From positions 1-24,283 of the IMG/VR virus record IMGVR_UViG_3300032092_002842: DNA of 24,283 nt, one strand, 5' to 3'. Of the stretch, positions 2,624 to 16,231 are shown piece after piece (position 1 is the stretch's first letter; every line of letters starts with the position of its first letter). The position numbers were made by a program, and so were the translations under genes. The notes under the pieces are model-generated. The model did no database searches. It was not told the origin of the DNA and saw only the letters and a program-made list of their open reading frames with translations. The stretch is from a virus.

Positions 2624-3547
2624 CTAAACAAAACTGAGTTGATCGTTGACGAGTGCGGCTACGATGTCTTGAGTCTTTGGGACGCCCATACCCCAGAACG
2701 GATCGAATCCAGGATCACCCTTGTCCTGGGTGTACTTCGCCAGAAACGCTCGAACGGCTTCCACCCCGGTAAACTCTGCTGCGCCTTCGCGTCGCATTAG
2801 CTCAACAATCAAAGCAAACAACCCCGCCGCGAACGGAGTTGCCATGCTCGTTCCTGACATACCTCGGAAACTGTTGTTGGTCGAGCAAGACACGATGTCT
2901 TGTCCTGGACAGCACATGTCGAGCTCGCGTCCACCAGACGAAAACGAAGCTCTTTGCCCGTCTTTTCGATAGGCACCAATGCAAAGCGACTCAGGATACT
3001 TTGCTGGGTAGCCAATTGTATTTTGCCTTCCGTTGAAGCCTGAGTTGCCAGCAGCCGAGATCGTGATCACCCCTTTGCTCCAAGCATACTCCATGGACTT
3101 TCGCGTCGGCTCGTAAGGACTGCTTGACCCCAGCGACAAGGAAAGGATGTCTGCTCCATTGTCTACTGCATCGCGTACTCCATTGGATATTCCATCGGAC
3201 GATCCCTGTCCGCCGTTTGAAAGCACCTTGATTGCCATCAACGACGCATCAGGAGCAACTCCGATTCCATCTCTAGCGAGCACGGTCCCCGCGCAATGAT
3301 TACCATGACCGTTTCCATCACTTATGCTTTCGCCTCGAATGAACGACTTCGAATAAACTGGCTTCGGAAGCAAGTCATGGGGAGTATATCCAGTGTCCAG
3401 GACCGCCACGACGATACCCTTGCCAGTGACCCGCTTCCAAATCGGCTCGAACGTCGCTTTTGGAAGATGCCACAGATCTCCCGGAACTGCAAACGTCTGC
3501 ACGTCCGAAACCAAGTCTGGTGGCAAATATACTGGTGGTGACTTCAT
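2624..3547 (-). CDS. Subtilisin-like serine protease (S8 family)
   Basis: A 307-aa S8 peptidase carries all catalytic signatures: Asp51 in VAVLDTG, His81 in GNGHGNHCAGT, the oxyanion Asn168 in AAGNSG and the nucleophile Ser234 in GMSGTSMATP. The protein is close to a bare catalytic domain. It has no detectable signal peptide and little room for a propeptide (about 40 residues before the first strand), so it may act inside the cell or in the particle rather than as a secreted enzyme. ATG 3547 is preferred over GTG 3550. It lies after capsid and lectin-fold genes, downstream of a terminator-like hairpin. Capsid maturation, processing of virion proteins or host-surface degradation are possible roles. 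Dedicated prohead proteases are usually of other folds, so the location is unusual. Confidence 0.93.
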   Translation of the reverse strand: MKSPPVYLPPDLVSDVQTFAVPGDLWHLPKATFEPIWKRVTGKGIVVAVLDTGYTPHDLLPKPVYSKSFIRGESISDGNGHGNHCAGTVLARDGIGVAPDASLMAIKVLSNGGQGSSDGISNGVRDAVDNGADILSLSLGSSSPYEPTRKSMEYAWSKGVITISAAGNSGFNGRQNTIGYPAKYPESLCIGAYRKDGQRASFSSGGRELDMCCPGQDIVSCSTNNSFRGMSGTSMATPFAAGLFALIVELMRREGAAEFTGVEAVRAFLAKYTQDKGDPGFDPFWGMGVPKTQDIVAALVNDQLSFV

Positions 3548-3572
3548 CACTTGACCCCGATATCAATCTGAA

Positions 3573-3625: not shown

Positions 3626-4483
3626 TTAGAGCAATTGAGCGCAAGCCCACCAATCGATGTACAACTGGTGAGCAGCCGTAGCTTCAAAGTTGATCGCAGC
3701 ACAGAAGTTCATGTACAGATTCGGCCACGGAGTAGCGCCAGTGATCGCAGAATTGATCCTCGCGGTAGCAACTTCTTCCCCGTTCATCCAAATCGAACAC
3801 TGCTTGCGAGCTGCGTGGTAACGGAAACCTGCCTTGATGTAGGTGTCAGCCGCCAGCGTCAGGACGCTTGCACGAGTCCCTGGAGTACCACTGACACGAT
3901 TGTACGAAAGGCTCATTGCCGAGCCTTGCGTCCCAATGCGAGTGAACCCCAAGAAGTTGTTGGACGCCAAAGCACCTGCGTCAGTAAACACGCCGCTGTC
4001 CGCACAAGCTCCAGTTCCAGCCAAGCCGATAAAGATGTCACTGCAAGACGCCGTAATGGCAGAAACCTTGAAGCGACACTCAAAAGCCAGTTCTTGCATC
4101 CTTGCGGGATTGACGTGAAACGGCGTCATCGTTCCACTCCCAGCCTGAAGAATGGCAATGTCGTTGGCGGTTGTGTCCGATTGCATCACGATGACGCCAG
4201 GACCGTTTTCGCTAACAGACGGAGTTGCCGAAGGAACAGCCGCAGCCGTCGGAACAACCGTTGCATCGTTGTAGGCGAGATAAGAATTGCCATTCGACTG
4301 GAAGTACGTGGTCGCCGTAGCCAGTGGGGAAACAGCACCAAAGTTTTCGAAATCGTCAAAGAGGCCGCGCACCTCGTTCCCGCTCGCTTGGTCAGGGAAC
4401 ACACCACCAACAGGCGGCGCAAAACCCCTCCAAAGTTTTGGAGACAAAAGACGCTGATCCAACTCTACGTATTGAGTTTGCAT
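3626..4483 (-). CDS. Lectin-fold (ConA/LamG-like) virion protein
   Basis: The 285-aa product starts at ATG 4483 with GAAGGG about 8 nt upstream. After an N-terminal region of about 40 residues it shows the features of a concanavalin/LamG-like jelly roll. These are a segment ending in LAFECRFKVSAI, FIGLAGT with an acidic loop, IKAGFRYHAARKQCSIWMNG (the typical strand pair before a W-x-N-G turn) and a final LYIDWWACAQ strand, rich in Ala, Thr, Ser and Gly. It directly follows the major capsid gene and probably is a structural protein: head decoration, spike or fibre that binds glycans or other virion parts. Fold assignment is by pattern; the exact role is inferred from position. Confidence 0.7.
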   Translation of the reverse strand: MQTQYVELDQRLLSPKLWRGFAPPVGGVFPDQASGNEVRGLFDDFENFGAVSPLATATTYFQSNGNSYLAYNDATVVPTAAAVPSATPSVSENGPGVIVMQSDTTANDIAILQAGSGTMTPFHVNPARMQELAFECRFKVSAITASCSDIFIGLAGTGACADSGVFTDAGALASNNFLGFTRIGTQGSAMSLSYNRVSGTPGTRASVLTLAADTYIKAGFRYHAARKQCSIWMNGEEVATARINSAITGATPWPNLYMNFCAAINFEATAAHQLYIDWWACAQLL

Positions 4484-4613: not shown

Positions 4614-5732
4614 TTAGGCGGTTTCGGTCACAGTCTGAGTGCAATAGCCACGGAAGTTTGCGCGACGATTGAAACAGACCATTTGAAGCGAGTCATCCAT
4701 GCAGCGAACGCGAACGTTGCTCATCTCTGGGTGCTGGAATGCCTTCCTCTTGCGCATCTGCCGACCTGCGGCGTAGTACGCTTTGAAAGTCGACCAGTTG
4801 ACCCCAAGGACGATCCCGTCAGTTCGAGCATTGACGCTCTCGCTGCTGGTCCAAGCTGGAACCCAGTTCAACGGCACGCCACGGATGTAAACCTGACCGC
4901 TGCGAGCAGCCATGTCGTCGCCAATGTTGTCGTTTCCAAGCTGAAGCATTCGCCGACCAGCCGCCAAGACGCTGTAAGTCGTCAAAAGCTCCCAGTCGCT
5001 TCGCTTCTGATCAACGATGTCTGGTCGCTGAACAGGTGGCTCGAACGAACACTTATCCATCGAGCTGATCACCTTTTCGACAAAATCGGCGCGAGTAATC
5101 GACGTGTAAGGAAACGTTCGGTTTCTCCATTGCGGGTACTGGGTACACGAAATGCCGCCAACGCCGACGCTTGACCACCCAACAGGCTCGGCTCCATTGA
5201 AGCCTTCAGTCGCGTTGTTCTCAGTCACGCTGTCGCTCGTGGAGGTGATCCACCAAAGCAACGACGAAACAATATTGGGGGTCTGAGTAGGACTCGATGG
5301 ACCAGGACCGAACACCAAGTCTTCCATGCCAGTGTAGAACGACGTCATGAGGTCGCGTTCTTGATCCTCGATGTAGTCGTAAATCTGCCGACCGCCAGTG
5401 CGGAAGATCTCTTCGTCGATGTCGTAGTGGTAGTTGTTCGTGGTCAACGCCCACTTCAATTCACCTTGGTCGAGCGTGTTGACTCGAGTCGAAGAATCTC
5501 GGTGGTACAGACCAACAGATTGGAAGTTGTCTTGATATCCGACCTTTACCTTCCACCTGCATTCCGACGTGCTCATCGTGTCCTTCTTCAGATTTCCCGA
5601 AAAAAGACGCGATGCGTAATGGTACTTCTGCAACGTTAAGGACAAATCCTGCGCTGCAAGCCGTTCTTCACCCGCAAACTTCTGGTGGATGCTGTTTACA
5701 AAATCGTCAATCTGCTCAATGGACAAAGCCAT
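4614..5732 (-). CDS. Major capsid protein (HK97-type fold inferred)
   Basis: The 372-aa protein follows the scaffold gene and precedes a strong terminator, the usual place of the major capsid protein in portal-scaffold-capsid gene orders. It begins MALSIEQIDDFVNSIHQKF, has no signal or membrane segments, and mixes a helical N-terminal arm (residues ~1-45) with a long beta-rich body. Near the end is a region similar in character to capsid P-domain and A-domain strands (IVLGVNWSTFKAYYAAGRQM ... MVCFNRRANFRGYC). Size fits an unprocessed HK97-fold subunit with separate scaffold. Identification rests on synteny and length; I did not recognise a specific capsid family by sequence. Confidence 0.8.
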   Translation of the reverse strand: MALSIEQIDDFVNSIHQKFAGEERLAAQDLSLTLQKYHYASRLFSGNLKKDTMSTSECRWKVKVGYQDNFQSVGLYHRDSSTRVNTLDQGELKWALTTNNYHYDIDEEIFRTGGRQIYDYIEDQERDLMTSFYTGMEDLVFGPGPSSPTQTPNIVSSLLWWITSTSDSVTENNATEGFNGAEPVGWSSVGVGGISCTQYPQWRNRTFPYTSITRADFVEKVISSMDKCSFEPPVQRPDIVDQKRSDWELLTTYSVLAAGRRMLQLGNDNIGDDMAARSGQVYIRGVPLNWVPAWTSSESVNARTDGIVLGVNWSTFKAYYAAGRQMRKRKAFQHPEMSNVRVRCMDDSLQMVCFNRRANFRGYCTQTVTETA

Positions 5733-9250: not shown

Positions 9251-11146
9251 TTATCGCTTCAAAACGTCGCGTATTGAGTACATCGGACTGCCGATATCGA
9301 CACTACGTCGTTCCTGGCGTTCCCGCCATAAGTAACTACCATAATCTGGAGTTTGTCCCGTTTCAACATCGCTGTCAATTTTTTTTCCAGGATTATCGGT
9401 AGAAAATACCAACCAAGCACCCGCAGCGGAGATTGCTCGATCGCCGTGATTCTTCTCTGTCGCACCTTTGTTCTTGGTCGGAGCGTGGATAATTCTTCCG
9501 TTTTCCCACTCGTACTCGCCGCACTCAACGAGCATTTCCTCGGACCTTGGAGTGTACTCTCCACTTTCCATCGCCAACGCAAATTGCTCGAACATATCCG
9601 CCTTGTCGGCATCACGGCATGGGAACCCAGCCTTGCGACTCTTTGTTTGGGATCCGAGTTGATCAACGTCCCGATAGAAAATGTTGCCGTAGTAGCAAAC
9701 CTCACGCACCTCCTTGGCGAAACCTCCGGAAACACCCGAGTCTTCCCATCCGAGCAAGGCATTTCGCATCCACAGGCACAATCCGACTACGATGCGAGCA
9801 AACGGACGCGGCTCGAGACCTTTGACCGTGTACTCAAGCACTTGCTCGCCTGTCCGATTGTCGATTCCCGATGCCACGGAGTTCGAGGCAAAGGCTCCCA
9901 CCCCGCCTGACGCGATGTCGCAAGCGATCGTGAATGGACCAAGTGTTGGTCTGTTGTCGATCCCTGGCTTGAACCAGAGCGACAAGGGACCATTCTCGTC
10001 GGGGATGAGACCTTTGAGCTCAAGCGTTTCGCTGTCGAACACCGGCTTGCCTCTCCAAACTGGCTTTTTGCAGTGCTCGCGTTTCATTCGGTCCAACAGG
10101 TCCGTAGTGAACACCTTGCCGGCTGACCCCCTGGCGTCCATGTCCAACTCTCGAGCGATGTACCGCGGAGTAGACCCTGGGACCAAGCAATGGGAGTCGT
10201 ACCAGGGAGATCTCACCTTACCTTCAATTTTGTGTCCCTTGCGCTCGATCGTCCGCAGTTCTCGCTCATGCGACTTAATGTACTTTTCGACTTCCTCTTG
10301 CTCGTCAGGGTTGATCGCTTTAACCACCCCATCCTGCTTGACGTAGGCTAATCTGGCGTGCTCTGGGTTATCCTTCCAGTCGAGGGAATAGACTTTCGGG
10401 TTGTCCGTGTCAGTTGCCGACTCGTAGAACACTCCCGTATCAGCGCCGAAGGTGGAGCAAAGCACGACGCAATTAGTCACATGCGCAACGCTGGACATGA
10501 TTTTGTAGTCGATGCCGTTTGCGATGAACTCCTCGGATCCAACTTCGTCGAACGCAAACATCGTCGTCCGGCCACCCCGAGCAACGTCACTCGTTGCAGC
10601 AAACCCAACCCATATCGAACCCGTAGTTGGCAAAAGAATCGTGTGGTCGTCGATATTCCGCTTATACCCGTCGAGCATCCACAACGGAAGCTTGTCAAGC
10701 ATCGTGGATAACTTGTTCATTACTGCGGTTGGATCTTTTGAATCCATCATCTTTTCGTTCCGAGTCACCAAACCCGAAGAAAAGCCTTTTTCGAACAAAG
10801 CTCGCCTGATCTGCGTCCCGAGGTAGACGTATGTCCCGCCTTGCGCTCGGCTTTTGGGGATCGTCACCGACACTGGATGCTCAGTGTCCATCGCCTCTGT
10901 GATCGCATCATCGATCGCCGTGATCACCTTTTCTTGGTGATTCCATGGAACAAACGGCTTCATCTTGACCTTGGCTCGCGGCTCATGCACCCACAGAGCG
11001 AACGCGAAGAAGAACAGCACATCGGTTTCGCAGGCTTGTAACAACGCGTCGCGGAACCGCTTGTCGGTCAAGGCGCGCTCCCTGCATCGGATTCGCCACT
11101 CCAGGTTTTCTACTGGATCTTTTGGTGCTAGGTCGTAGTAGGACAT
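9251..11146 (-). CDS. terL: Terminase large subunit (ATPase/nuclease)
   Basis: The 631-aa protein packages phage DNA into the procapsid. The ATPase half has a Walker-A-like loop PKSRAQGGT (residues 97-105) in the deviant form often seen in terminases, and Walker B plus catalytic Glu in TMFAFDE (195-201). A coupling motif VVLCSTFGA lies near residue 227. The nuclease half has RNase H-fold acids: Asp410 in IACDIASGG, Glu468/Asp469 in GWEDSG and Asp569 in HGDRAISAAGAW. Start ATG 11146 has no strong ribosome site; the leader upstream contains an intrinsic terminator and a strong promoter. It is the first gene of the structural block. No canonical small subunit is recognisable nearby; the small genes at 11258-11881 are candidates. 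Confidence 0.95.
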   Translation of the reverse strand: MSYYDLAPKDPVENLEWRIRCRERALTDKRFRDALLQACETDVLFFFAFALWVHEPRAKVKMKPFVPWNHQEKVITAIDDAITEAMDTEHPVSVTIPKSRAQGGTYVYLGTQIRRALFEKGFSSGLVTRNEKMMDSKDPTAVMNKLSTMLDKLPLWMLDGYKRNIDDHTILLPTTGSIWVGFAATSDVARGGRTTMFAFDEVGSEEFIANGIDYKIMSSVAHVTNCVVLCSTFGADTGVFYESATDTDNPKVYSLDWKDNPEHARLAYVKQDGVVKAINPDEQEEVEKYIKSHERELRTIERKGHKIEGKVRSPWYDSHCLVPGSTPRYIARELDMDARGSAGKVFTTDLLDRMKREHCKKPVWRGKPVFDSETLELKGLIPDENGPLSLWFKPGIDNRPTLGPFTIACDIASGGVGAFASNSVASGIDNRTGEQVLEYTVKGLEPRPFARIVVGLCLWMRNALLGWEDSGVSGGFAKEVREVCYYGNIFYRDVDQLGSQTKSRKAGFPCRDADKADMFEQFALAMESGEYTPRSEEMLVECGEYEWENGRIIHAPTKNKGATEKNHGDRAISAAGAWLVFSTDNPGKKIDSDVETGQTPDYGSYLWRERQERRSVDIGSPMYSIRDVLKR

Positions 11147-11163
11147 GACTTCGCGTCAGTAAA

Positions 11164-11200
11164 TGGAAAAAGCCGCGAGACAGGAGTCCCGCAGCTTCTT
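11164..11200 (-). terminator. Intrinsic terminator in the terminase leader
   Basis: On the minus strand AAGCTGCGGGAC pairs with GTCTCGCGGCTT over 12 bp, including two G-U pairs that exist only in the minus-strand RNA, around a 4-nt loop TCCT. TTTTTCC follows. The hairpin lies about 18 nt before the terminase start and about 30 nt after the predicted start site of the promoter at 11235-11262, so it sits inside the leader of the late operon rather than at the end of a gene. Confidence 0.85.
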
Positions 11201-11234
11201 TGGAGATTTGCTCCCGATGAAAGAGCATGCGTAA

Positions 11235-11262
11235 GTGTACCGAAAGCAAGTCGCATGTCAAC
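11235..11262 (-). promoter_or_regulatory. Sigma70-type promoter of the late operon
   Basis: On the minus strand TTGACA (perfect -35) is separated by 16 bp from TACACT (-10, 4 of 6 matches). It overlaps the 3' end of the small gene 11258-11449 and would start RNA near 11228, giving a leader of about 80 nt that contains the intrinsic terminator. Confidence 0.7.
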
Positions 11263-11449
11263 TACTCTCCGCAACACTTTTTGTGTTGGTACAATTTTTC
11301 ATGTGCTCAGCAAGTTCCTCTCGCCAGTACGGATGCCGCATGTCGTAGTGCAATCGATCGACCTGCGCCAAGATCTTCCGCTCGAATCGCTTGGCTTCGG
11401 CTTCCGCCACTTCTTGCAGTTCTTTGAGCGTTGGATTGCGCAATGCCAC
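11258..11449 (-). CDS. Small helical protein upstream of terminase
   Basis: A 63-aa charged helical protein starts with GTG at 11449, 2 nt after the stop of the upstream gene, with GGAAAG about 9 nt ahead. The sequence (TLKELQEVAEAEAKRFERKI then HYDMRHPYW) is rich in Glu, Lys and Arg. Its place directly upstream of terminase large subunit is where small terminase subunits are usually encoded, but it is much shorter than known ones and has no recognisable DNA-binding motif, so I leave it unassigned. Its end contains the late promoter. Confidence 0.6.
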   Translation of the reverse strand: MALRNPTLKELQEVAEAEAKRFERKILAQVDRLHYDMRHPYWREELAEHMKNCTNTKSVAESS

Positions 11450-11451
11450 GG

Positions 11452-11748
11452 CTATTTTCTTTCCAGCGCCTCTCGCATACCCATCGTCTTGAGCCGAGCT
11501 CGCAGCGTCGACTCCTTGATCGTATGGGACATCGCCCAGTCCTTGATCGACATCCGTATGCCGTTGTACTCTACGCCGCAGTTCCCGCAGGACGATGTGT
11601 GACCGCTTTGCAGGTGGTCCAAACGCACCTCAACCTCGTTGCCGCACGAACACTTGCATTGGAACTTGCGCTTGCCAGTGGACGCAACCTCGCTGACTAC
11701 GGTCAACTCGCCGTACTTCTTTCCTTTTCCAATAGCAATCGGACGCAA
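11452..11748 (-). CDS. Zinc-ribbon plus HTH protein, homing-endonuclease relative lacking nuclease
   Basis: I start it at TTG 11748: the codon sits one base after the TAA of the previous gene and follows AGGGAAAG, and an upstream ATG (11820) would only add 24 residues that are the shadow of that gene. The 98-aa product has YGELTVVSEV and CKCSCGNEVEVRLDHLQSG and CGNCG, the zinc-ribbon module commonly fused to phage HNH and AP2/homing endonucleases. It ends with MSIKDWAMSHTIKESTLRAR followed by LKTMGMREAL, matching the small HTH often found at their C-terminus. The HNH or other catalytic domain is absent. It may be a DNA-binding remnant or a repurposed regulator or terminase partner. Confidence 0.7.
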   Translation of the reverse strand: MRPIAIGKGKKYGELTVVSEVASTGKRKFQCKCSCGNEVEVRLDHLQSGHTSSCGNCGVEYNGIRMSIKDWAMSHTIKESTLRARLKTMGMREALERK

Positions 11749-11749
11749 C

Positions 11750-11881
11750 TTACTTTCCCTTCGCCTTGGGTTTCGGGGGACTTTTCTTCGTCGAGGAGGT
11801 AGCTTTCTTGCAACTCCCACTGCTGTACGCTTTCTTGCCTTTCACTGGCTCGTATCCTTTCCAACATCGATTCTTGTTCAT
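11750..11881 (-). CDS. Small Cys/Lys protein with RCWKGYEPV motif
   Basis: A 43-aa protein starts at ATG 11881 (AAAGGG at good spacing) and begins MNKNRCWKGYEPVKGKKAYS. The RCWKGY-x-P-x-x-G-x-K-x-Y-S-x-G-S-C pattern is a short module I have met in many phage and large-virus proteins, sometimes as a tail of larger enzymes; its function is not known to me. A low-complexity Lys/Ser/Pro tail (SSTKKSPPKPKAKGK) follows and probably binds nucleic acid or is disordered. It is the first gene of the minus block divergent from the recombinase. Confidence 0.7.
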   Translation of the reverse strand: MNKNRCWKGYEPVKGKKAYSSGSCKKATSSTKKSPPKPKAKGK

Positions 11882-12001: not shown

Positions 12002-12046
12002 GCCGATGGTGTTTTACCGATAGTTTTCTTCGAAGGAGATATTTCG

Positions 12047-12655
12047 ATGACAGTAGCAGCGTATGTTCGAGTTAGCACAGAATGTCAGAATGAGGCTAGC
12101 CAGAAACGAGAGATTTTGCAGTGGCTTGCTGGAAACGGCATTAAGCATGGTAGCGTCACATGGTACATCGACAAGGCAAATGGATCGGATCTTAAAAGAC
12201 CAGCCTTCGAGCAGATGCAAAAGGACATTTTTAACGGCGCTATCAAGACCGTGGTGATCTACAAGCTTGATCGTTTATCGAGAGAGATGTCTGATGGCGT
12301 TAAGGTGCTTGCCGATTGGGGCGCGAAGAAGGTTCGGCTCGTATGCACCTCGCAACAGTTCGACTTCTCAGGTGTCATCGGCGAGTTAGTTGCAGCTATC
12401 ATGTTTGCGATGGCGAAGTGGGAGAAGGTGAACACCAAGGAGCGCCAAGCGGCCGGAATCGCTGTTGCGAAGGAGAAAGGCGTTTACCGAGGTCGCATTC
12501 GTGGCGCTACCAAGGCTGGCGTTAATCCAGCTCGCGCGGCTGAACTGCGAGCGAAGGGTTTGAAACACGCGGAAGTAGCGAAAGCCATGGGTATCAGCGT
12601 GAGCACCGCGTTCCGATATGCGCAAGATGCTAAACGCGAAGCAGCAGGCAAGTAA
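12047..12655 (+). CDS. Small serine recombinase (resolvase/invertase family)
   Basis: The 202-aa protein cuts and rejoins DNA through a Ser-DNA intermediate. Catalytic residues fit the family: Arg8 and Ser10 in YVRVST, and Arg76 and Arg79 in KLDRLSRE. A long E-helix region (VIGELVAAIMFAMAKWEKVN, ~110-129) and a C-terminal helix-turn-helix (~165-192, KGLKHAEVAKAMGISVSTAF) follow. The total length matches resolvases and invertases, not large serine integrases. The ribosome site AAGGAGATATTTCG is excellent. It is the only rightward gene in the middle of the window and is convergent with the small-gene operon. It could act as phage integrase, DNA inversion switch or resolvase; no invertible segment is evident. 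Confidence 0.95.
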   Translation: MTVAAYVRVSTECQNEASQKREILQWLAGNGIKHGSVTWYIDKANGSDLKRPAFEQMQKDIFNGAIKTVVIYKLDRLSREMSDGVKVLADWGAKKVRLVCTSQQFDFSGVIGELVAAIMFAMAKWEKVNTKERQAAGIAVAKEKGVYRGRIRGATKAGVNPARAAELRAKGLKHAEVAKAMGISVSTAFRYAQDAKREAAGK

Positions 12656-15042: not shown

Positions 15043-15370
15043 CTGTCACCTCGTTTCGCATCGGTCGATTCACGCCTGGGATCGGATGCTCAAGTGTTAA
15101 TCGTGGGACGCTTGCAGAAAGAAACGCCGCAGCGAACATCGTCATAAACTCATCCGACAGCAAGACCTCGCGGATTGCTTGTTTCATGTCGGCTTGCGGG
15201 TCTCGACGCTCAATCAATTCAAGATCAGCAATTGCGGCCCAAGCGCATCTCCGTCCGCATTCGGATTTACACCGCACGCTATCAGATAGGAACTCTTTAA
15301 CGATTAGAGGCACCTTATATGGTTCGTCAGTCTTCAATCGCACCACATCGCCAATCTTAAATTTCGTCAT
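15029..15370 (-). CDS. YodC-like small phage protein
   Basis: I start at ATG 15370 because AAAAGGAAAAACG precedes it; a longer frame upstream is a shadow. The 113-aa protein opens MTKFKIGDVVRLKTDEPYKV, the signature of the YodC/DUF2158 family of small beta-barrel proteins with unknown function that are frequent in phages and enterobacteria. Cys in CKSECGRRC (residues ~35-43) is the usual central motif. A helical C-terminal extension of about 50 residues (QAIREVLLSDEFMTMFAAAF) is additional. It overlaps the following HNH gene by 14 nt. Confidence 0.75.
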   Translation of the reverse strand: MTKFKIGDVVRLKTDEPYKVPLIVKEFLSDSVRCKSECGRRCAWAAIADLELIERRDPQADMKQAIREVLLSDEFMTMFAAAFLSASVPRLTLEHPIPGVNRPMRNEVTDDPT

Positions 15371-15630
15371 CGTTTTTCCTTTTCGGCTTGGATTTTCTTC
15401 TGCGCAACACAAATGACGCACGGCGACAATGCAACGGTGTTGCCGCACGCACATAGATAGCTTGGAACGCGATAGAACTTTACGCCAGTTGTCGCTGGAG
15501 CGTCGGCTTCGCGGCATGCAAGACACTTCTTAGAATTGCTGTGTGTCAGTTGGTACTGTTCGCCACACTTGGCGCAATGGCTGTAGGCGGCTGCCTTGCG
15601 TGCTGGTCGTATTCGCTGGGTCGGTCTCAT
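15367..15630 (-). CDS. Zinc-ribbon protein (two CxxC pairs)
   Basis: The 87-aa protein has an N-terminal basic stretch, then CAKCGEQY and CLACRE (one zinc knuckle set) and CACGN with CVIC (a second set), spaced like a double zinc-ribbon. ACAGGAGATTTGCG is its ribosome site. It ends in a Lys/Glu tail and overlaps the YodC-like start by ATGA. Small zinc-ribbon proteins of this type in phages may bind nucleic acid or partner proteins; the function is unknown. It is the first coding gene after the structured RNA array. Confidence 0.75.
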   Translation of the reverse strand: MRPTQRIRPARKAAAYSHCAKCGEQYQLTHSNSKKCLACREADAPATTGVKFYRVPSYLCACGNTVALSPCVICVAQKKIQAEKEKR

Positions 15631-15652
15631 CGCAAATCTCCTGTTGTAAAAA

Positions 15653-16160: not shown

Positions 16161-16162
16161 AG

Positions 16163-16231
16163 TTGCGGGTCTAGGAATCGCACCTAGCACTCGGAGCTTA
16201 TGAGACTCCGATGGGCGCTAGCCCACCCGCA
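16163..16231 (-). tRNA. tRNA with CAU anticodon (Met-like), short D-arm
   Basis: The acceptor strands TGCGGGT and ACCCGCA pair perfectly over 7 bp. The anticodon arm is GGAGT-CTCATAA-GCTCC, with U33 and anticodon CAU. The T-arm is CTAGG-TGCGATT-CCTAG. The D-arm is reduced to GGGC-TAGC-GCCC, giving only 69 nt with no encoded CCA. It would read AUG, or AUA if the C is lysidine-modified. It lies 2 nt from E2 and 7 nt from E1, in a tight array typical of phage tRNA clusters. Confidence 0.7.

Follow-up and report, generated by a model that had tools for sequence, protein, structure and literature searches.

A proposed trans-acting small RNA from a lambda-like late leader, predicted to silence early genes of its own phages

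The window analysed here, a whole linear IMG/VR contig of 24,283 nt, carries a compact unit of promoter, two hairpins and terminator ahead of its terminase gene. We consider it probable (about 0.8) that this unit, laid out like the late leader of lambda, specifies a trans-acting phage small RNA of ca. 61 nt which silences early genes of the phage itself. The unit and its fold are conserved among relatives, the linker between the hairpins is complementary to the ribosome-binding sites of many early genes, and linker and sites covary between lineages.

The leader unit and its conservation

The terminase large subunit (631 aa; 9251..11146 on the minus strand, ATG at 11146; phrog_5989, E 3.4e-9) has relatives encoded in 91 viral stretches. 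Upstream of the leader unit is a Zn-ribbon/HNH-like gene (11452..11820, minus strand; phrog_374, E 1.8e-13), followed by a divergent serine resolvase (12047..12655, plus strand; PF00239, E 8.3e-31) and an 87-aa ORF with zinc-finger-like cysteines (15367..15630, minus strand), for which family searches gave no confident family. The interval from the Zn-ribbon gene to the unit contains a 63-aa ORF (11258-11449, minus strand), in a stretch which is absent from near-identical relatives such as L002. The window also encodes a subtilase in its structural region (2624-3550, minus strand; PF00082, E 1.7e-47) and, by ARAGORN, a tRNA-Met (CAT; 16162-16231, minus strand) in surroundings without clear genes; L056 has two tRNAs too (Rfam).

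The promoter of the unit consists of a -35 hexamer TTGACA (11256..11261, minus strand), a 16-base spacer and a -10 hexamer TACACT (11234..11239, minus strand), with 10/12 consensus matches. By itself it is no better than chance, the 20 kb scanned containing 7 promoter-like sites vs 11.6 in shuffles. The RNA would start near 11227, about 7 bases past the -10 hexamer and 81 bases ahead of the terminase ATG, which agrees with the sequence-only reading that had placed this promoter about 80 nt before terminase. The proposed small RNA (~61 nt; 11167..11227, minus strand) thus takes its 5' end from the promoter and its 3' end from a run of T residues. Within it the fold predicts hairpin 1 (UGCUCUU / loop UCAUC / GGGAGCA; 11209..11227, minus strand) and hairpin 2, which together with the T run (11171-11167) forms a putative intrinsic terminator (11167..11200, minus strand) indicated by fold and covariation. 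The same reading had described a 12-bp hairpin followed by TTTTT in the leader, and stem, G-U pairs and T run are as it stated: AAGCTGCGGGAC (11197-11186) pairs with GTCTCGCGGCTT (11181-11170) around the loop TCCT, with one U-G and one G-U pair among the twelve. RNAfold lengthens the stem to 15 bp, reaching into the T run. Hairpin 2 is absent from the list of the consensus terminator scan, presumably since its T run is taken up in the stem. Folding of the minus-strand RNA gives -23.4 kcal/mol over 51 nt (z -5.7; equalled by 0/200 shuffles); the fold of the plus strand is unremarkable (z -0.16 over 84 nt). The sequence GAGCAARTCTCC has a single exact occurrence within the window.

For comparison the best 80 of the 91 stretches with terminase relatives were kept, and up to 170 upstream bases were inspected for 71 of them. 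A covariance model, R1, was built from 15 leaders using the terminator pairs only. It gave strong matches in 34 of 81 sources, many of which are near-identical or part of the model, and when whole records were searched one strong match each was found in 16/24 and then in 3/8 further records, the strong copy being single in each record and adjoining terminase. The window, itself part of the model, matches at 11224-11165 with 68.4 bits, while the L253/G025 leader, which lies outside the model, scores 50 bits (E 8.5e-13).

Conservation of promoter and hairpin in relatives had been suggested as a check, and both are conserved. Promoter hexamers with a spacing of 16-18 are present in 20/20 leader loci checked, each with 10 or 11 of 12 consensus matches; the -35 is TTGACA in 19 of these and TTGACT in L023, and the -10 of most relatives is TATAGT or TATATT. 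In the terminator stem, 9/11 pairs have changed on both sides in a compensatory manner. Pairing holds in 94.8% of 154 cells vs 80.5% in shuffles, none of 500 shuffles being as good, and control stems slid along the alignment are 30-50% paired. Hairpin 1, its arms read by hand, forms standard pairs with differing letters in 13/13 leaders. Because they are conserved in relatives with compensatory changes in the stem, we regard the promoter and hairpin 2 as genuine; the 9/11 compensatory pairs indicate that the hairpin is selected as RNA and that promoter, hairpins and terminator form one compact unit of transcription. It had been argued that two G-U pairs alone mark the hairpin as RNA-selected; the conclusion is upheld by covariation, but the argument from a single sequence was weak. 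Conservation likewise supports the proposed order of promoter, leader and terminator ahead of terminase, with its lambda-like layout and a predicted leader RNA of about 60 nt.

The clade shares the unit despite diverged sequence. The gap from terminator to terminase is often only about 20-100 nt; in L011 and L051 the unit stands some 610 or 710 nt ahead of terminase, with one or two small genes in between. The related clade L026-L030 lacks the unit, its terminase following the Zn-ribbon gene at a short distance. A palindrome, TGTGACA-N(3-4)-TGTCAC(A), occurs between the terminator of the small RNA and the next gene in L044, L045 and L051, and is a possible late-operon operator.

The invariant linker and its predicted targets

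Between the two covarying hairpins the linker AARUCUCC is invariant, while both stems vary. A plain terminator needs no invariant linker, and AARUCUCC therefore points beyond a terminator role. With its flank the linker reads GCAAAUCUCC, the exact complement of GGAGAUUUGC, a ribosome-binding site that precedes numerous early genes in this phage group ("early" is defined here by position outside the terminase-side late module, not by timing). The seed of the window, GCAAATCTCC (11202..11211, minus strand), spans the invariant AARTCTCC columns and is the exact complement of GGAGATTTGC; in the window fold its part AAATCTCC is unpaired except for the first A. The leaders fold as hairpin 1, linker and hairpin 2, with the linker fully open in 7/11 folds and partly paired in the remaining four (L012, L025, L051 and L058), mostly to positions that coincide with the likely start or precede it. 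As in a small-RNA gene, a conserved unpaired seed lies between structured parts, and the unit has its own conserved promoter and intrinsic terminator.

The sequence GGAGATTTGC stands directly before the resolvase ATG in many relatives (L011, L020, L022, L039, L058, L059 and L066), and in the window before the 87-aa ORF. This predicted target (15632..15641, minus strand), a 10/10 complement to the seed, forms a duplex of -17.4 kcal/mol, the best among 30 hand-listed window starts, about six of which are a few bases off; the next best is -11.0. It is the only perfect target in the window, where the resolvase site GGAGATATTTCG (12035-12046) pairs only partially (-9.4) and the start of terminase itself pairs worst of the 30. 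Across the family the predicted targets comprise a RecE-like exonuclease (phrog_5715), a YqaJ exonuclease (PF09588), an SbcC-like ATPase (phrog_77; AAA_23), the resolvase (PF00239), a gp88/DUF7227-like protein and several unknowns. Also frequent is GGAGATTGA, with 11 sites and weaker pairing to the linker; among GGAGA gene-start sites it accounts for 5/25 in G022 and 4/26 in G008.

Gene starts were counted as GGAGA, four bases and ATG, excluding the small ends of G007, G017, G030, G027 and G003. In RNA-bearing records 31 of 234 GGAGA starts are GGAGATTTG vs 3 of 105 in RNA-less records (Fisher P 0.0015; the pattern was first noticed in these same data, and the further records are close relatives, so that the P values given here overstate independence). 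TTTG is the commonest of the 256 continuations of GGAGA in nine RNA-bearing records (21/176, expected 4.9). A second set of eleven RNA-bearing records, some of them closely related to the first nine and two of them devoid of such sites, gave 10/58 (expected 2.6). The three TTTG sites among the 105 starts of the eleven RNA-less records all belong to resolvase genes of one clade. When each set of homologous proteins is counted a single time, the values become 17/163 and 8/55 for the RNA-bearing sets and 1/95 for the RNA-less set. At the resolvase, GGAGATTTGCG persists in three relatives that lack the RNA, and this site is therefore independent of the RNA.

Tests of pairing energy, lineage, linker swapping and the late module covered 11 of the 20 RNA-bearing records, with gene starts taken from a crude, leader-blind caller and a single cut-off of -14.5 kcal/mol, set once. 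The real linkers gave 62 gene starts at or below this value vs a mean of 20.6 and a maximum of 35 for the nulls, which were 100 linker sets with the UCUCC core kept and the flanks shuffled. G008, G005 and G026 exceed all their own nulls; the result is suggestive for G014 (equalled or exceeded by 4/100 nulls), G020 (6) and G002 (6); and G016 (1 hit; 44 nulls of 100 as high), G025 (3; 42), G007 (3; 30) and G022 (6; 16) do not reach significance by themselves. The window itself has a score of 0 in the pairing-energy and late-module tests because the caller dropped its target ORF. Strong pairing was found at 4/208 starts of the late module (limit 25 kb) vs 58/757 others, and GGAGAYTTG at 0/53 late-module GGAG starts vs 24/256 elsewhere.

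Linker and site also change together by lineage. The heptamer ACAGGAG occurs at 27/493 starts of phages with a CUCCU linker vs 3/472 of those with CUCCA. The RNA-less records have it at 6/630 starts, five of them in G017 (5/119), and base rates therefore vary. The base preceding GGAGA is U or A in a ratio of 26:21 in CUCCA phages vs 13:51 in CUCCU phages (P 1.4e-4). Genes carrying GGAGACTTG in phages with the linker CAAGUCUCC have counterparts with GGAGATTTG in CAAAUCUCC phages. The exonuclease site is GGAGACTTGC in G026 (CAAGUCUCC linker) and GGAGATTTGC in G014, G022, G008 and G025 (CAAAUCUCC linker), and has been lost in G016 and its clade-mates L335-L337; the gp88-like gene has GGAGACTTGG in G005 vs GGAGATTTGC in G002. 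Most sites of the CAAGUCUCC phages are still GGAGATTTG (11, vs 3 GGAGACTTG and 6 GGAGGTTTG), and these pair with the linker by wobble. As two added scans yielded few orthologues, the A/G switch of seed and target rests on few genes of one lineage (G005, G026). The complementarity exceeds chance and covaries with the linker, more weakly so in the swap test (P 0.03-0.04), in which pairing was stronger with a phage's own linker than with an exchanged one (P 0.033 and 0.039).

Alternative readings, wider searches and hosts

The layout was initially taken to be an antitermination switch, and a late leader of the lambda type, in which hairpin 2 halts polymerase as long as neither a protein nor the RNA permits read-through, and whose RNA has no targets, would indeed show promoter, leader, terminator and late gene in this order, with promoter and terminator conserved and the terminator often some 20-100 nt from terminase. 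The absence of an evident Q-like gene had been remarked upon, and the Q families PF03589 and PF06530 gave no match at E <= 1 in any of 11 records searched, several of 60-73 kb, although records may be fragments and an unfamiliar Q could be missed. The variable distance to terminase, the small genes which can intervene and the clade L026-L030 without the unit argue against a dedicated attenuator; moreover such a leader leaves the invariant linker and its covariation with early ribosome-binding sites unexplained. We therefore do not retain a Q-type switch as the purpose of the unit and consider a targetless leader unlikely. Read-through antitermination into terminase is possible but unsupported. 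The sequence-only reading had named a small protein or the leader itself as candidate antiterminator; the leader as the actor was the better guess.

It could also be asked whether GGAGATTTGC is simply a favourite ribosome-binding site, matched by the linker through chance or anti-Shine-Dalgarno mimicry. T-rich spacers are common, and some RNA-less relatives use GGAGATTTGC at the resolvase, but the sites are in excess both of the position-independent expectation and of flank-shuffled linkers with an identical UCUCC core, and the matching upstream of GGAG is lineage-specific; we hold this to be very improbable. Equally slight is the probability that GGAGA sites of the host, in its mRNAs or small RNAs, are the main targets of the RNA, the phage matches being secondary. 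UCUCC can pair with any GGAGA site, and the known phage small RNAs VpdS and PreS hit host genes in the account of PMC12197685, yet it is in the phages that complementary sites are enriched, and there they track the linker by lineage. A DNA operator GCAAATCTCC, present in the leader as well as ahead of early genes and bound by a regulator of the phage, would likewise be shared between the loci. In the leader, however, GCAAATCTCC is the strand between two covarying RNA hairpins, at the genes the site is the ribosome-binding site in sense orientation, and opposite the G of the variant linker the targets have C, or U as a wobble partner; such an operator is extremely improbable. We accordingly prefer a small RNA directed against early genes of its own phage.

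A scan of viral contigs for promoter plus seed gave at least 120 stretches, mostly chance matches beside family members, and one for seed plus terminator gave 82, consisting of family members and chance terminators; no convincing unit outside the terminase family was found in either, among the matches listed in the case of the first. L415 (25 bits, 5.8e-5) was rejected as a further unit, having no evident promoter and preceding a different gene. G010, G017 and some unit-less relatives yielded no convincing alternative locus with seed plus terminator, and Rfam gave no match in the window. In L049 terminase begins with ATGAGCAAATCTCCT (3987-4001), whose letters are identical to the seed of the small RNA; no leader unit was found there and we treat the identity as coincidence. 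The terminase of L066 (3992-6799), a single 935-aa frame, contains an extra in-frame segment of some 300 aa which follows 'VTNC' and closes with 'VHNC', with an HNH-like ORF (4755-5513) overlapping in another frame; the insertion looks like an intein, and similarly long terminase matches occur in L058, L037, L248 and L270.

Terminase relatives in host genomes were confined to two contigs, both of Planctomycetes MAGs (66% and 51% identity), and the small RNA is absent from both. These two contigs make Planctomycetes the likely hosts, a tentative assignment.

Proposed action and comparison with known phage RNAs

From the arrangement of these elements we infer transcription, ribosome blocking with repression, and timing as follows. 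Transcription of the ca. 61-nt RNA would begin from a sigma-70-type promoter, at the foot of hairpin 1, and end at hairpin 2. The exposed linker (G)CAAAUCUCC would pair with the Shine-Dalgarno region GGAGAUUUG(C) beside the start codons of early genes, the proposed targets being the exonuclease, the SbcC-like ATPase, the resolvase and small unknowns. Pairing over 8-10 bases would most likely cover the Shine-Dalgarno sequence and block initiation. Since the RNA gene heads the packaging operon, early shutdown would probably follow late expression or rising genome copy number; alternatively the RNA may keep early genes low from the start, and the timing is uncertain. Terminase might then be reached by incomplete termination, antitermination or another promoter. 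More broadly, and only as a tentative possibility, these planctomycete phages may possess an early-to-late switch made of RNA alone, in which an early replication and recombination regulon evolved seed-matching sites lineage by lineage and is silenced by late transcription or copy number without a protein repressor.

Trans-acting phage small RNAs, and their origin in late leaders, are already known. Searches of the open-licence literature gave no report of this RNA, nor of any phage RNA directed against the ribosome-binding sites of many early genes; a multi-gene early regulon coevolving with its seed, which our literature search did not find, is the new element. To our knowledge phage small RNAs are mostly known singly, from phages of enterobacteria and Vibrio, and we know of almost no phage genetics in Planctomycetes, the probable host phylum. 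Here one RNA appears to coordinate many genes of its own phage, seed and targets changing together in uncultured phages, which would offer a simple model for temporal control without protein. A terminator that precedes terminase may be there to regulate, not to attenuate, and such regulons in other phages could be found from a comparison of their leader linkers and ribosome-binding sites.

The late leader of lambda, pR'-tR' (6S RNA), is subject to Q antitermination and shares with the present unit the order of promoter, short leader, terminator and late operon; it differs in that the present phages have an invariant antisense linker, that small genes may come between unit and terminase, and that no Q family was found in the 11 records searched. 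OOP, sar and aQ, like the proposed RNA, turn down phage genes, but as presented in PMC12197685 they are antisense RNAs with one phage target each, sar blocking the start of translation, whereas the present RNA is located apart from its many predicted targets. VpdS of VP882 affects phage and host mRNAs via Hfq, and the target of PreS of lambda is host dnaN (PMC12197685). Both are free-standing phage small RNAs acting in trans; neither is described in that source as having a seed that matches a set of early-gene ribosome-binding sites. StxS of the Shiga-toxin phages runs from the late promoter PR' to the terminator tR', binds a ribosome-binding site and silences translation (PMC7873438); it is given as a trans-acting RNA of 74 nt in PMC12197685. 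StxS is processed, Hfq-bound and directed at stx1B and host rpoS, whereas many early genes of the phage itself are predicted as targets here and no Q gene was found in the 11 records searched. The present RNA would resemble StxS in being a short phage RNA made from a late promoter and stopped by a terminator before the late genes, its binding being a prediction, and StxS, as described there, provides the precedent that a late leader can be a working small RNA which binds a ribosome-binding site.
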